Shown here: positions 6,730 through 18,067 of the stretch, piece by piece | How the letters are laid out: each line of letters opens with the position of its first letter | How positions within the stretch are numbered: the first letter of the stretch is position 1 | Origin: a virus | Virus record (IMG/VR): IMGVR_UViG_3300031658_000158 | Location: 1 to 21,937 of that record | Length of the DNA: 21,937 nt | Reading direction: 5' to 3' (one strand) | Program-made: the position numbers and the translations under genes | The notes under the pieces: generated by a model | Told to the model about the DNA's origin: nothing | What the model saw: the letters and a program-made list of their open reading frames with translations, nothing else | The model's database searches: none

Positions 6730-6759
6730 GATTGGCCTCCGAATTTTGTGTTAGCGTAT

Positions 6760-6783
6760 GCCCGTGCAATCTAGCACAAAGGC
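6760..6783 (-). promoter_or_regulatory. Leader hairpin upstream of the 6729 structural gene
   Basis: In the minus-strand RNA, GCC and GUGC arms pair with GCAC and GGC across a UAGAUU loop, with a UUU/G internal bulge. The hairpin sits about 25 bases before a GGAGGCC-N4-ATGGC start. A GGGCA followed by ACGC here resembles the capsid and tube leader elements. No strong promoter is visible in this 70-base gap. Confidence 0.4.
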
Positions 6784-6799
6784 TCTAGGTAGTAAATCA

Positions 6800-13923: not shown

Positions 13924-14294
13924 TCTGTCTGGTCTATGACCTCCGTCTTTTTTTTTAACTTTTCGTCACCAACGTCAGGCATAAAGGCAACGCCCAGAAC
14001 CGCTTGCGCGATCTGGAACAGCCTCATTAAATCTTCAGGTGTGCATTTTGAAATAACTGCATCAGCTTCAGCGTCTTTCATTCCACCGCCGACCAAGCCA
14101 AGCGCAAGAATGTCACGAACCTCTTTGCTGTTTGGCTTTGTGCCGCGCCCAAAGAACCCTTCCCAGAGGTCAAAGATGCCCCGGTGCTGATCCTCAAAAC
14201 GCTCAATCTCACGATTGCGAAGTTTGAAAGAGTAGGAAGCATCGTCGATTGTCTCGACGATGCTCCCACGTTCTGCTTTAGCAGTTATTGCCAT
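13920..14294 (-). CDS. Tail assembly chaperone, GTA gp10 family (G part)
   Basis: The 124-residue protein follows the tail tube gene and matches the gene transfer agent gp10-like chaperone family. Visible marks are 'YSFKLRNREIERFEDQH' (about 21-37), 'LWEGFFGRGTKPNSKEVRDI' (about 43-62), then 'LALGLVGGGMKDAEADAVI' (about 63-81) and 'AQAVLGVAF'. It is thought to bind the tape measure and recruit tube subunits. It starts at an ATG overlapping the tube stop (TAATG). Nine residues before its stop lies an A9 run with a dnaX-like A_AAA_AAG in frame, so a fraction of ribosomes probably shift to the next frame. Confidence 0.8.
   Translation of the reverse strand: MAITAKAERGSIVETIDDASYSFKLRNREIERFEDQHRGIFDLWEGFFGRGTKPNSKEVRDILALGLVGGGMKDAEADAVISKCTPEDLMRLFQIAQAVLGVAFMPDVGDEKLKKKTEVIDQTD
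13947..13958 (-). promoter_or_regulatory. Putative -1 ribosomal frameshift site
   Basis: In frame zero the RNA reads UUA AAA AAA AAG, giving both A_AAA_AAA and the highly slippery A_AAA_AAG. The -1 frame is open from here into the 13729-13923 frame. Five bases downstream a small stem (GGUC, loop AUA, GACC; 13931-13941) could stimulate slipping. The frame-zero stop is nine codons further on. Confidence 0.65.
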
Positions 14295-14719
14295 TATGCG
14301 GCTGTGAACGTTACTGCGCCGTTACTTTCAAGCGAGATAGAGTAAGTAACGCCGCCTTCAGTTTCTCCACCAAATTCCAGAGATGAAATGCGGAATGCGC
14401 CAGCATATGTGCCAAAATCAGGAACGACAATTTCCATGTTCACAGAATTGTCAGCGGCCATTGCGACAGTATTCATGCGGGCTTCTGCCACGCTGTCTTC
14501 AAAAAAGCCATCGCCAGAAAGGCTAACATTTTTTAATCCAGCTAGTGTTGCCGTAAACAAAGCGCCTTCAGGAGAAGTGCAGTCAGGAGTTGTCACATCA
14601 ATCGAAGAGTTGTTGATCGTCAATGATTTTGAGTTTAAGCCGCAAAGGTTTGTAAAAGCCTCGCCACCAGCGCCGTCACCGATTTTTACCAGCAGGGCGC
14701 GTCCAAGTTGTTTAGCCAT
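14294..14719 (-). CDS. Major tail tube protein
   Basis: This 141-residue protein matches the TP901-1/GTA gp9-type tail tube family. It starts 'MAKQLGRALLVKIGDGAGGE', followed by 'FTNLCGLNSKSLTINNSSID' (about 22-41), 'VTTPDC' and 'ATLAGLKNVSLSGDGFF' (about 57-73). It ends with 'VTYSISLESNGAVTFTAA', a typical tube C-terminus. Hexamers of this protein stack to form the tail tube, so it is needed in hundreds of copies. It has its own leader gap (14720-14761) with a hairpin and GGAGGCC-N4-ATGGC RBS shared with the capsid gene. The stop overlaps the next ATG (TAATG). The assignment is strong from motif and position. Confidence 0.85.
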   Translation of the reverse strand: MAKQLGRALLVKIGDGAGGEAFTNLCGLNSKSLTINNSSIDVTTPDCTSPEGALFTATLAGLKNVSLSGDGFFEDSVAEARMNTVAMAADNSVNMEIVVPDFGTYAGAFRISSLEFGGETEGGVTYSISLESNGAVTFTAA

Positions 14720-14723
14720 AACT

Positions 14724-14758
14724 GGCCTCCATTTTTTTGCGCTTGCCCACAGCGCGGG
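14724..14758 (-). promoter_or_regulatory. Leader hairpin plus RBS cassette before the tail tube gene
   Basis: The RNA has a 17-base hairpin (14739-14755; GCGCU/AGCGC arms), then an A-rich run, then GGAGGCC four bases before ATGGC. It is a close copy of the element before the capsid gene: 15 of 17 hairpin bases are the same. As As rather than Us follow the stem, it is not an intrinsic terminator for the operon. Confidence 0.65.
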
Positions 14759-14761
14759 AGT

Positions 14762-15181
14762 TTAGGCAGCATCTTCAAGCATAGCCTGAAGCACAATGAC
14801 AGCCGTGTAGCCACGACCTTCACCATCTCTTGTAACCGAAATCGTCTCGAATATCAATTCGATCAGGTTGAAACCATAAGCCGTCACAGAGCCTTCTTGA
14901 CGATGCAAAGCGGCCTTTACTGCCTCGGCTATTTGTACCGCCTCTGCGCGGCCTGAAGGGCTGCGAGAATGAGCCTCAAAGGTCAAAGAAACCAAGGCAC
15001 CTTCGATTGTGTCTGTGTCAAACGCGGCTGGCGATATTTCGCCAAATCGCAAATATGGAAACGTGGCATTCTGCGGCGGCTCATCATAAATGCGGCTGCT
15101 GACAATATTCGTCACGCCGCTATTTGCAGCCAACGTGGCCAGAAGCCCCTTCTGCAAAGACAGTGCAAACCCATCAGCCAT
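14762..15181 (-). CDS. Tail terminator / DUF3168 family protein
   Basis: The 139-residue protein is a DUF3168 member, the family of tail terminators (lambda U, GTA gp8 type) that cap the finished tail tube and join it to the head. Seen here are 'LQKGLLATLAANSGVTNIV' (about 9-27), 'RIYDEPPQNATFPYLRFGE' (about 30-48), 'VSLTFEAHSRSPSGRAEAVQ' (about 64-83) and 'RDGEGRGYTAVIVLQAMLE' (about 118-136). All are typical of the family. It overlaps the previous gene by eight bases, with GGAGGCGG before the ATG at 15181. Its place after the gp10-like gene and before the tube gene is canonical. Confidence 0.85.
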   Translation of the reverse strand: MADGFALSLQKGLLATLAANSGVTNIVSSRIYDEPPQNATFPYLRFGEISPAAFDTDTIEGALVSLTFEAHSRSPSGRAEAVQIAEAVKAALHRQEGSVTAYGFNLIELIFETISVTRDGEGRGYTAVIVLQAMLEDAA

Positions 15182-15572
15182 TGACCGCCTCCTTAATTCC
15201 GCGCTTTATAGCCGACTTAATAGCCTTTTTGAACTTTGGCCCCTGAAGTTTTTGAGCCAAGCGGATGTAAGGCTGCGCCTCAGTTGTTCCTCGGTTGCCT
15301 TTTATGCGGCCAAATTCAACAGCCTTGGCCTTAATTTGCTCATCACGGCTTGGCGGCGCGGCTTCAACCGATCCAAGAAATTCGTGGTTGCCGCGTTCAT
15401 ATTTTGTGTAAATCCAGCCCCTTAGCTCACCGCTGTCAACGGGAACAAGGTTACGAGCCAGCCGCGCAGCCGCTTCGGTGTTGCGCTTAATAGATTTGAC
15501 GATCTGTCGCTCAACAGCTTCAGGCATTTTGTCAAACTGTTTTGCCAATTTTTTTGCACCAGTGACATTCAT
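15174..15572 (-). CDS. HK97 gp10-like tail completion protein
   Basis: This 132-residue basic protein fits the HK97 gp10 family of neck and tail-completion proteins. Marks are 'MNVTGAKKLAKQFDKMPEAV' at the start, 'IKRNTEAAARLARNLVPVDS' (about 28-47), 'GELRGWIY', 'AKAVEFG' and 'TEAQPYIRLAQKL' (about 96-108). In HK97-like phages it works at the head-tail junction between the stopper and the tail terminator. It overlaps the head closure gene before it by four bases (ATGA). The C-terminus is lysine-rich. RcGTA has no obvious counterpart at this place, so this phage is nearer to the classic HK97 neck set. Confidence 0.8.
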   Translation of the reverse strand: MNVTGAKKLAKQFDKMPEAVERQIVKSIKRNTEAAARLARNLVPVDSGELRGWIYTKYERGNHEFLGSVEAAPPSRDEQIKAKAVEFGRIKGNRGTTEAQPYIRLAQKLQGPKFKKAIKSAIKRGIKEAVNG

Positions 15573-15907
15573 GGTGCAATGCCCTTTTCCAGAACAAACT
15601 CGAGTGTCGTGTTTTTTGCGTCAAGTTGGATTACGTTTTTGATGGCCCAAGTAATGCCGCGTGCAATCACGCGATCAGCGGTAGTAATAGTTGCAGTTAT
15701 GCTGTCAGAACGAACCCGCATAGTGGCAAGATTATTATCTTCAAGCACTCCGCCAGAAATCTGTTTTCGGCCTTTTCGCTCAAGCAGATCAGCAGACCGG
15801 GAAACCAAAGCATTCCAGCCCGTGTAAACATTTCCATATTCGTCAACCGTGCCTTCAGACAAACGCTGAAACACAACACGCTCACGCAAAAGGCCGGCCC
15901 TAACCAT
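15569..15907 (-). CDS. Head closure (stopper) protein, SPP1 gp16/HK97 type
   Basis: The 112-residue protein matches phage head closure proteins (SPP1 gp16-like; GTA gp7 position). It begins 'MVRAGLLRERVVFQRLSEGT' and has 'DEYGNVYTGWNALVSRSADL' (about 22-41), a family hallmark, followed by a beta-barrel ('DRVIARGITWAIKNVIQLDA' at about 78-97). It stops the packaged DNA from leaving and forms the second ring of the neck. It overlaps the connector gene by eight bases and the next gene by four. The start has no strong RBS of its own and is probably coupled to the connector gene. Confidence 0.8.
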   Translation of the reverse strand: MVRAGLLRERVVFQRLSEGTVDEYGNVYTGWNALVSRSADLLERKGRKQISGGVLEDNNLATMRVRSDSITATITTADRVIARGITWAIKNVIQLDAKNTTLEFVLEKGIAP

Positions 15908-16508
15908 ACCAAGAAACCCGGTTAATATTTATCAATTCTTCAAACCCAAAGGGAATGCTTTTTGATATAGTTCCGATTAATTCGTTTTCGCGATTGTCAT
16001 ACCAATGCCCAATAAGCAACATAAGTGCGTGCCGGATGCTCTGAGGGACGTCAGCAATCGCGTCACCAAATCCGATCTCGTATTCAATCCTTATGGCGTC
16101 AGAACGGTTTTGCGTGACAGGCCAAGAAAAGCCGTCTTTCGGGCCTACAGTTGAAGTAAAATCTGTGCCGAAGGTTTGGTAATTTGTCAGCGTGTCTGTT
16201 TGCAAAACGCCATCAACGTCATAATATTTAATCGCAGTGACCGATTGAACCGGGCCAAGAACAAGCGCAACCTTTTGCTGTGGGTTTGGACCCATCCATT
16301 GCGCCCATTTCTGGGTAATCATTGCCTGACCAAGTGCGCCCCTCGCATCAGTGTAAGCGACCGCAACGGCAATTAGCCGATGGATCATTACATCATCATC
16401 ACTATGCTCAACGCGCAACTGCGCTTTTGCTTCCGCCAAAGTAATCGGAGTAACAGCGGGAGCGTCTACAATCTCAAGCGCGTGATGTGTCAAAAGCGGC
16501 TGCGGCAT
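15900..16508 (-). CDS. Head-tail connector (HK97 gp6-like)
   Basis: This 202-residue protein fits the HK97 gp6 / phiE125 gp8 connector family. The signature region is 'PITLAEAKAQLRVEHSDDD' (about 21-39), then 'MIHRLIAVAVAYTDARG' and 'LVLGPVQSVTAIKYYDVDG' (about 82-100). The C-terminal helix bundle is 'VPQSIRHALMLLIGHWYDNR' (about 154-173), ending near a basic 'NINRVSWYG'. A ring of this protein attaches below the portal. It begins one base after the stop of the small 16509-16700 gene (TAA-ATG), with AGAGGA upstream, so the two are coupled. Confidence 0.85.
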   Translation of the reverse strand: MPQPLLTHHALEIVDAPAVTPITLAEAKAQLRVEHSDDDVMIHRLIAVAVAYTDARGALGQAMITQKWAQWMGPNPQQKVALVLGPVQSVTAIKYYDVDGVLQTDTLTNYQTFGTDFTSTVGPKDGFSWPVTQNRSDAIRIEYEIGFGDAIADVPQSIRHALMLLIGHWYDNRENELIGTISKSIPFGFEELININRVSWYG

Positions 16509-16700
16509 TTACTGTTCCTCTACAGCAGTCTCAAGTTTAACCTTACGGACTGCACGCTCAACTTTAGAAGGCGTCTCAATAGCTTCAGCAATTCCAGCCG
16601 CAATATAACGTGCAGCCTCTGCGGCGTTGCAATCAATTTCATCACCAGAATTGTGGCTGAAATCGATACCAGCCATGCCTGTCAATAAACGAACTTTCAT
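16509..16700 (-). CDS. Small conserved phage protein between capsid and connector
   Basis: This 63-residue protein starts 'MKVRLLTGMAGIDFSHNSGD' and has 'AAEAARYIAAGIAEAI' at about 26-41, ending in a charged tail. Small proteins of this pattern (KVR.L...AG, a GDE turn, then a helix with 'AG.AE') are common after the capsid gene in alphaproteobacterial phages. The function is not known; a minor head or neck part is plausible. The ATG at 16700 has GAGAGGA upstream; a TTG 15 bases further up is less likely. It follows the UUCG hairpin at the end of the capsid gene. Confidence 0.6.
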   Translation of the reverse strand: MKVRLLTGMAGIDFSHNSGDEIDCNAAEAARYIAAGIAEAIETPSKVERAVRKVKLETAVEEQ

Positions 16701-16723
16701 TTCAAATCCTCTCAAGTGGATAA

Positions 16724-16743
16724 GCAGGGACCGAAGCCCCTGC
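16724..16743 (-). terminator. UUCG-tetraloop hairpin after the major capsid gene
   Basis: The minus-strand RNA forms an eight-pair stem (GCAGGGGC with GUCCCUGC, one G-U pair) closed by a UUCG loop. It lies ten bases after the capsid stop. Only two Us follow, so it is probably a 3' stabilising or attenuating hairpin rather than a full terminator. The wobble pair would be an A-C mismatch in RNA from the other strand. Confidence 0.65.
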
Positions 16744-16752
16744 CTACTGTGT

Positions 16753-18000
16753 TTAGGCTGTAATCAAGTGCTTGATCGCTGCTGTGTTGGCAAGTGTGCC
16801 GTCAAAGCGGATATAACCCAAGATGCCGTAATCTGGAGCGAAACGCTCGCGTGCAACAAACAATGACGGACCACCAACTTTGCGAACATAGAACTTGGAC
16901 ATATCGCCAAACAACATGACTTTTTTCGCAGTTGCGAGGCTGTCCATTGCTTGGTTTACAACTACGTTGTAGCCCAACAGGTTCTGCGGAATGCCTGCTT
17001 GATAGTTGCCCATCGCCCAGAGATATTCGCCTTGCGAAGTCTTCAACTTGCGAACCGCAGAAAGTGTACTGTCGTTCATCATAATTGCTGTTGAAGGCGA
17101 TGCACGGTAAGCAGGGTCAACCGAGTGAACCAAATCAATGATTTCGTCTGCTGTGATCGCGGCAACTGCGGCTGCGGTTTTGCCCAAAGCTGAGTTGGTT
17201 ACGATGCCTTCAACGTCTGAAGAACCTGAACCAGTTGTCAGTTTTGAGTTTGCAATGCGGCCGAGACGTTCGCCAAGCAGTTCGCCCAACAGGCTCTCTA
17301 CATTGAGGATTGAATCACTTGCCAATTCGTAGGACCAACGGACCCACTCAGTGTCAAACGCATAAGCGCCCAAAGTCTTCTGACCGAAAGTGACATCTTT
17401 GCCGCCATCATCGGTAACTGTGCCAGCTTCAGTGTGAGCTTCAGCAGTAACAGCAGTATCGTTCACCGTTGGGATGTTGAAAGTATTCCCGCCTGTTGTA
17501 TTCAGAACAGTAAACAAGCTGCCGTCATACATTGGGCCAGTGGCGATCATCGCTTTGTCAATGAAGTTAGCCAGTTCAGTCGGAACTGTGTAACCGCCAG
17601 CAGTAGCCGTGCCAGCAGTTTGTGCGCGAACTTCAGATTGACGCAGAACATTGCGAACTTCGCCGTCCAAGCCATCAACGCCGCCGTTTGCAATCATTGA
17701 AAAGAATGCTTTGCGGTAAGAAATGTCAGAACCTTGATCTACGGCAGGGGCAGAACGATCTTCAGCAACTGGACGCTTGGAAACGTCAACGGCTTCAGAA
17801 GCACGCAGCGCAGCCTCAGATTTTTCAAGACGATCAGCGCGTGCTGAAAACTTGTCGTGGTCAGCCATCATAGCGTCAAATTCACGCTCAACTTCTGCTG
17901 CACGACCTTCTGGCGTACTGTCGTTTAATTCTGCAAGTTTGGCGCGGGCCTCAGTGGCGATGTTCGCCATCTTCTCCCGCAGGTCTTTGATATCAGCCAT
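16753..18000 (-). CDS. Major capsid protein, HK97 fold
   Basis: The 415-residue protein is an HK97-type major capsid protein. Residues 1-122 are a charged helical scaffold (delta) domain, for example 'EVEREFDAMMADHDKFSARA' (about 36-55). The mature part probably begins near 125-136 ('AQTAGTATAGGYTVP'). The core has family features: 'GGNTFNIPTVNDTAVTAEAH' (about 169-188), 'SIL..ESLLGELLGERL', 'LLGYNVVVNQAMDS' and a C-terminal 'APDYGILGYIRFDGTLAN'. The neighbouring protease would remove the delta domain during maturation. The start has GGAGGCC at ideal spacing and follows a leader with two hairpins; a UUCG hairpin follows the gene. High expression is expected. Confidence 0.93.
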   Translation of the reverse strand: MADIKDLREKMANIATEARAKLAELNDSTPEGRAAEVEREFDAMMADHDKFSARADRLEKSEAALRASEAVDVSKRPVAEDRSAPAVDQGSDISYRKAFFSMIANGGVDGLDGEVRNVLRQSEVRAQTAGTATAGGYTVPTELANFIDKAMIATGPMYDGSLFTVLNTTGGNTFNIPTVNDTAVTAEAHTEAGTVTDDGGKDVTFGQKTLGAYAFDTEWVRWSYELASDSILNVESLLGELLGERLGRIANSKLTTGSGSSDVEGIVTNSALGKTAAAVAAITADEIIDLVHSVDPAYRASPSTAIMMNDSTLSAVRKLKTSQGEYLWAMGNYQAGIPQNLLGYNVVVNQAMDSLATAKKVMLFGDMSKFYVRKVGGPSLFVARERFAPDYGILGYIRFDGTLANTAAIKHLITA

Positions 18001-18004
18001 TGTG

Positions 18005-18036
18005 GGCCTCCATATATGCGCTTGCCCAAGGCGCGG
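18005..18036 (-). promoter_or_regulatory. Leader hairpin plus RBS cassette before the capsid gene
   Basis: The RNA has a 17-base hairpin (18018-18034; GCGCCUU arm, GGGC loop, AAGCGC arm with one bulged C), then AUAUAU, then GGAGGCC four bases before ATGGC. The same cassette precedes the tail tube gene at 14724-14758. Confidence 0.65.
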
Positions 18037-18046
18037 GGGAAGGGCG

Positions 18047-18067
18047 AACAGCGGGAGAACCGCCGTT
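18047..18067 (-). promoter_or_regulatory. Second hairpin in the protease-capsid gap
   Basis: The RNA pairs AACGGCGG with CCGCUGUU (eight pairs, one G-U) around a UUCUC loop, five bases after the protease stop. No U run follows, so a terminator is unlikely. It may protect the capsid message at a processing point or block read-through initiation. Confidence 0.55.

Follow-up and report, generated by a model that had tools for sequence, protein, structure and literature searches.

What is the device that stands, in two nearly identical copies, before the major capsid gene and the major tail tube gene of the viral contig IMGVR_UViG_3300031658_000158? This 21.9-kb IMG/VR contig, analysed over its whole length of 21,937 nucleotides (nt) and called the window below, carries its structural genes on the minus strand. 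An earlier note on this DNA had described a GC hairpin, an A/U-rich spacer and the sequence GGAGGCC-N4-ATGGC ahead of both genes and had proposed a dedicated 5′ mRNA element, and both copies are present where it placed them. We found that the element is an H-type pseudoknot, in which the hairpin loop GGGC pairs with a conserved upstream GCCC or GCCU. Its structure, its conservation, its specificity for these genes and its fixed spacing from the AUG are established, as are matching 3′ hairpins in the phage group of the window; in function, the element may stabilise the two messages or boost their translation. The genes and repeated parts are as follows.

16753-18000, minus strand: major capsid protein, HK97 type (PF05065, E value 8.5e-54)
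18004-18011, minus strand: Shine-Dalgarno sequence (SD) GGAGG of the capsid gene with adjoining GCC(C) (GCC enrichment in leaders, see below)
18018-18034, minus strand: capsid-leader hairpin copy, GCGCCTTGGGCAAGCGC
14294-14719, minus strand: major tail tube protein (PF06199, E value 5e-28; phrog_1407)
14726-14730, minus strand: SD GGAGG of the tube gene (sequence; GCC enrichment in leaders)
14739-14755, minus strand: tube-leader hairpin copy, GCGCTGTGGGCAAGCGC

The two hairpin copies are identical at 15 of 17 bases, and in both the A/U-rich spacer and GGAGGCC-N4-ATGGC follow. The combined pattern CCCGCGCNNNGGGCAAGCGCA had two perfect matches in the window and no further match at up to 3 mismatches; 0.03 matches were expected from shuffled sequences, and none of 100 shuffles contained two. 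The SD part alone was unremarkable, with five window matches at up to 3 mismatches versus 1.8 expected. The note had also pointed to the private gap before each of the two genes; such gaps are not unique to them, as the window has further ones of ~52 nt after the capsid gene and of ~70 nt at 6730-6799.

The repeated 17-base hairpin is only the 3′ part of the pseudoknot, whose S1a partner lies further upstream. The simple hairpin of the earlier note is thus real, but it belongs to a pseudoknot; each leader also has an upstream hairpin, P1, and the element is partnered by hairpins 3′ of the genes. Both pseudoknots were identified by matches to a covariance model (R1, described below), by comparison with relatives and by covariation, and their parts are located as follows.

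18018-18045, minus strand: capsid-leader pseudoknot (R1 match, E value 2.5e-14), with S1a GCCC at 18042-18045, L1 at 18035-18041, S2a GCGC at 18031-18034, CTT at 18028-18030, S1b GGGC at 18024-18027, AA at 18022-18023 and S2b GCGC at 18018-18021
14739-14767, minus strand: tube-leader pseudoknot (R1 match, E value 9e-5), with S1a GCCT at 14764-14767, L1 at 14756-14763, S2a at 14752-14755, TGT at 14749-14751, S1b GGGC at 14745-14748, AA at 14743-14744 and S2b at 14739-14742

The upstream stop codon of the tube leader begins with the T of S1a. Thermodynamic folding of the two window leaders alone was uninformative (z-scores of 0.3 and -0.1). Relatives were collected via similarity of the capsid and tube proteins, so that leader sequence did not bias the set. 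All 60 unique capsid leaders and all but one of the 61 unique tube leaders (60/61) showed the pseudoknot arrangement, with the consensus order S1a (GCCN), L1 (4-13 nt), S2a, three bases, S1b (NGGC), two bases and S2b; the two bases between S1b and S2b were AA in 113 of 120 leaders. A stricter score was passed by 48 of 60 capsid and 53 of 61 tube leaders (101/121) versus none of 605 dinucleotide-shuffled leaders, and those real leaders listed as failing it were mostly ones with a 3-bp S2. The same score was passed by 40 of 514 other SD-preceded open reading frame (ORF) starts in the same loci; among these 40, the listed prefixes were internal restarts of the same capsid gene. Stem S2 occurred in seven versions among the capsid leaders and six among the tube leaders (GCGC/GCGC, GCAC/GTGC, GTGC/GCAC, GCGG/CCGC, GCC/GGC, GTC/GAC, GTCC/GGAC, GGGC/GCCC and others), with compensatory changes at all four pairs. 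The proposal of a dedicated 5′ mRNA element passes the check that the earlier note had suggested for it and is borne out by this conservation before related capsid and tube genes, with its compensatory changes and with a covariance model that recovers both window copies.

Because the loop is GGGC in most leaders, stem S1 barely varies in this set, and IMG/VR was therefore scanned separately for P2 hairpins that carry altered loops, using a pattern that did not include S1a. In the sequences recovered, the loop CGGC was accompanied by an upstream GCCG and the loop AGGC by GCCU, so that the closing pair of S1 covaries (GCCC/GGGC, GCCG/CGGC, GCCU/AGGC). A standard pair was present at this position in 118 of 124 unique leader-like sequences. 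After the sequences had been collapsed by the start of the downstream protein, 42 of 47 groups had a standard pair versus a shuffle mean of 24.7, and none of 20,000 shuffles reached this number. Among 40 distinct cores, which were anchored on GCC, omit L1 and include related, non-independent sequences, 96.9% of the cells were paired versus 80.0% after shuffling and at most 37.9% with slid partners; double changes occurred in 33 cells versus 6.5. Three of the four S1 pairs were invariant, and the covariation comes from the closing pair alone. Since S1 contained G-U pairs (16) but no A-C pairs, the mRNA is the folded strand. The loops GHGC, GGHC and GGGD, altered at positions 2, 3 and 4, gave 132 scanned stretches that were nearly all chance matches in coding sequence, which indicates that the GGC core is fixed. 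The U before S1b was likewise invariant, a position at which the core search itself required U. As a separate observation, the leader of a PF18906 tube gene in L601 (3567-3680; L numbers denote loci) has the loop GGGU and a distant ACCC as a possible partner.

The pseudoknot, whose hairpin stem S2 has 3-4 bp, fills the gap from the upstream stop codon to the ribosome binding site (RBS) of the capsid or tube gene. Upstream of S1a lies hairpin P1, which in the window takes two forms.

18047-18067, minus strand: P1 of the capsid leader, AACGGCGG-loop-CCGCTGTT, directly past the stop codon of the protease gene
14773-14791, minus strand: P1 of the tube leader, CTTCAGGC-TAT-GCTTGAAG, within the end of the tail-terminator gene

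The sequence of P1 differs by lineage, its versions including AACGGCGG/CCGCTGTT, AATGGCGG/CCGCTATT, AAGGGCG/CGCTCTT, CCGC-GUAA-GCGG and CCCCC-U-CGGGGG, and the tube-leader form has a compensatory version, A-U to G-C, in L009/L016. Many capsid leaders contain a further hairpin after the pseudoknot, P3, with a GUGA-type (GNRA) loop. In leaders without P3, S2 ended 15-22 nt before the AUG; in leaders with P3, S2 ended 49-52 nt and P3 17-19 nt before it. A helix edge is thus fixed near the AUG; given the size of the ribosome footprint, every leader has a helix that ends close to where the initiating ribosome has its 5′ edge. The spacer before the SD is 76% A+T, and the computed accessibility of the SD was slightly above that of other genes. 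In nearly all leaders the upstream stop codon lay between 3 nt inside S1a and ~31 nt before S1a, and in 53 of 60 tube leaders it lay 3 nt inside S1a. In Rhizobiales tube leaders such as L367, L373, L382 and similar ones, the CUGAUUG loop of P1 and the CAAUCAG just past S2 are complementary; this might be a second long-range pairing, confined to this subgroup.

To what genes is the element confined? The covariance model R1 was built from P3-type leaders without any window sequence, and in the window it matched the two leaders and nothing else. Over 93 loci (0.81 Mb), 131 of 133 matches preceded a capsid or tube gene and the two remaining ones were weak (E values 0.06 and 0.07); as most of these loci had been picked for carrying the element, what is informative in this count is that other targets are absent. 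Copies in host genes were looked for over the whole length of 12 genomes, with eight matches, seven of which were leaders already known and the eighth of which had an E value of 0.029. The tube proteins downstream belong to PF06199, PF08813, PF16460/PF16461, PF18906 and phrog_158. Clear matches in genome loci came from Rhodobacteraceae, other Alphaproteobacteria and Hyphomicrobiales, and weaker forms with a GGGA loop from Sphingomonadales; the element accordingly ranges over phages of Rhodobacterales, Rhizobiales and, probably, Sphingomonadales. Among cultured phages, Rhodobacter phage RcapNL, Sinorhizobium phage phiLM21 and Rhizobium phage RHph_TM3_3_3 carry it, in each case before the tube gene. 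It was not found at the capsid gene of RcapNL, nor in Rhizobium phages 16-3, AP-16-3 and RHph_Y3_1, Labrenzia phage V1, or Halomonas and Synechococcus phages.

The covariance models of Rfam 15 gave no match at their curated scores in the window or in 18 diverse loci, and at E values up to 5 only sub-threshold matches around both window leaders, so that a known Rfam RNA was rejected. No earlier description was found in the literature, with subscription journals and a 2017 survey of 224 RNA motifs not covered.

Some neighbouring structures were noted in the course of these comparisons. In L378, L431 and L433 the same hairpin with GCCU/AGGC, together with a terminator-like hairpin, precedes the gene of a 508-aa protein (phrog_13692, function unassigned). 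Pseudoknot-free capsid genes occur in Rhizobiales phages and prophages (L276, L278, L288, L294, L300, L302 and L269-L272, the last including phages RHph, AP-16-3 and 16-3); their leaders have another structure, roughly GGCAGGAC...CACCCGGC-nnn-GCCGGAGGGC...GUCCUGCC. The capsid gene of L272 (Rhizobium phage 16-3) is annotated in its record with a ribosomal slip that gives an alternative product for the major head protein. A third conserved kind of capsid leader, CUGGAC..GUCCGGAGUAAAGCCUAGGC..AAGCCCAA, overlaps the end of the protease gene (L273, L280, L281, L293, L310, L319, L322).

Did the two copies arise by a recent event? The earlier note had considered a mobile or duplicated element. A recently mobile or freshly duplicated cassette was not supported, since in the relatives each leader type, capsid or tube, is conserved together with the gene it precedes, the two types have different P1 and L1, and the tube P1 lies within upstream coding sequence. 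The sharing of the element by several unrelated tube families suggests ancient spread or convergence.

Hairpins were also found at the other end of the two genes.

16720-16747, minus strand: 12-bp hairpin with a UUCG loop and no U-tract, directly past the capsid stop codon
14235-14267, minus strand: 14-bp hairpin inside the start of the gene following the tube gene

On the coding strand of the window these are the second longest and the longest stem, respectively, and ten shuffles gave a single stem of at least 12 bp. The capsid 3′ hairpin was strong in 53 of 53 unique relatives, with a mean z-score of -3.6. In 43 distinct relatives, 12-14 of the 14 pairs of the tube 3′ hairpin were kept. Within 22 of those sequences, double compensatory changes were seen at 7 of 14 pairs and 98.4% of the cells were paired versus 91.3% after shuffling and at most 62.0% after sliding; the region is also protein-coding. 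Neither the leaders nor the 3′ hairpins were called as intrinsic terminators (a GC hairpin with a T-run), the exception being L160, another phage: on its reverse strand, ahead of the tube gene, a terminator-like GC hairpin with a T6 run stands between the element and the SD.

The reading that we place first, at about even confidence, is that the cassette is a conserved cis-acting mRNA element which, with the 3′ hairpin, fences the capsid and tube cistrons to give stable and independently translated mRNA. The long late transcript would be cut, and the pseudoknot would present RNase E and 5′ exonucleases with a folded barrier at the 5′ end. The 3′ hairpin would block 3′ exonucleases, and the SD next to the pseudoknot would allow initiation without reliance on the gene before it. 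Both segments would therefore persist longer than the adjoining ones and undergo more translation, yielding the excess of both proteins that the virion needs. The boosting of translation or protection of a 5′ end that the earlier note had envisaged is putative. In favour of the fenced-segment reading, besides the conservation, gene specificity and spacing described above, stable structure is present at both ends of both cistrons in the window group, though not in all other families. Several points weigh against it. No 3′ hairpin was found within 60 nt of the tube gene in L367, L377, L399, L438 and phiLM21, and capsid genes without the pseudoknot (L269, L274) also have 3′ hairpins, so that the two features are separable. 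The sequence conservation of GGC, of the U before S1b and of AA exceeds what a stabiliser needs and may point to a specific partner or to tertiary contacts. Finally, the fenced-segment model leaves the conserved GCC beside the SD unexplained.

This GCC adjoins the SD in 57 of 60 capsid and 61 of 61 tube leaders (118/121) versus 45 of the 211 other genes whose SD is GGAG, and it is complementary to the GGC of the pseudoknot loop; in the capsid leader of the window it lies at 18004-18007. It is an argument for a translation switch or coupler, in which the loop GGC would have two alternative partners, the upstream GCC(C/U), which gives the pseudoknot, and the SD-side GCC; a ribosome ending on the upstream gene would cover S1a or P1 and tip the balance, and the pseudoknot would free the RBS. 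The position of the upstream stop codon in or near S1a suits such a device, as does the invariant U before S1b, albeit imposed by the core search, and some leaders show 6-7 nt of complementarity between loop and SD region (CTTGGGC/GCCCAAG). There is also a precedent, since translation of plasmid repZ depends on a pseudoknot upstream of the RBS (PMC8383071). In most leaders, however, just three loop/SD-side pairs are possible, and the SD-side GCC is missing from most of the Rhizobiales tube leaders whose loop is CGGC. We rank the switch second because the fourth base next to the SD is not matched to the loop (A 27, C 21, G 7 and T 2 in capsid leaders, with GGGC near-invariant), and consider it rather improbable. 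A combination seems slightly more plausible but still doubtful: an undescribed RNA element, common to unrelated tube families, might fence the capsid and tube mRNA and set virion stoichiometry, with a loop that may choose between upstream and SD-side GCC as a two-state switch.

Autogenous repression, in which a virion protein or phage late protein would bind the pseudoknot and limit capsid and tube translation as gp32 does on T4 gene 32, appears unlikely. The pseudoknot and the A/U-rich spacer before the SD do resemble the T4 gene 32 operator, but one element serves the capsid and several unrelated tube families, and the S2 sequence and L2 vary freely, even between the two leaders of one phage, so that the protein would have to read shape. 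We regard it as very improbable that the element acts at the DNA or transcriptional level, as an operator, promoter or terminator that is palindromic by chance: GCGC-N9-GCGC is an inverted repeat and L160 has its terminator-like hairpin with a T-run, but pairing rather than sequence is conserved, G-U pairs occur in the mRNA sense only, and promoter- and terminator-like sites in the region were not above shuffles. Recoding by readthrough of the upstream stop codon into protease-capsid and terminator-tube fusions is scarcely credible and was rejected for the group, since the linking frame, open and in frame across both stop-to-ATG gaps of the window (72 and 42 nt), is not kept in relatives, where 59 of 120 leaders are closed by an in-frame stop no more than 25 nt from the ATG and all three frames are represented among the stop-to-ATG distances.

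From one long late transcript, a phage has to produce capsid and tube subunits by the hundred, whereas portals and terminators are needed in small numbers. How such ratios are set post-transcriptionally in tailed phages is poorly known, and the element offers a small, predictable handle on it. RcapNL in Rhodobacter capsulatus SB1003 combines a cultured phage carrying the element at its tube gene with a genetically tractable host, and the element could serve as a ready-made RNA expression part for Alphaproteobacteria.

How does the element compare with known systems? The S-adenosylmethionine/S-adenosylhomocysteine (SAM/SAH) riboswitch (RF01727) is likewise a conserved cis-regulatory RNA of Rhodobacterales (PMC2864571), but it sits upstream of metK, and the present element has no Rfam match. 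The IncI-alpha plasmid gene repZ resembles it in architecture, with a pseudoknot upstream of the RBS on whose formation translation depends (PMC8383071), and differs in its antisense RNA control and its role in plasmid replication. The mRNA of T4 gene 32, the most stable of T4, is cut by RNase E at -71 and has a leader pseudoknot in the -67 region (PMC3014915). Here too the leader of a phage message places an H-type pseudoknot ahead of an RBS rich in A and U, a likeness in architecture; in T4 a single gene for a single-stranded DNA-binding protein is served and an autogenous repressor is known, whereas the present element targets capsid and tube genes and any binder is putative. In the puf operon of R. 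capsulatus, protein ratios are determined by RNase E sites together with RNA structures that stabilise the message (PMC6238624). This too is an alphaproteobacterial polycistronic mRNA, but its genes are host photosynthesis genes, and the passages considered describe no conserved pseudoknot. Taken together, T4 gene 32 and puf indicate that both halves of the fenced-segment idea operate in nature.

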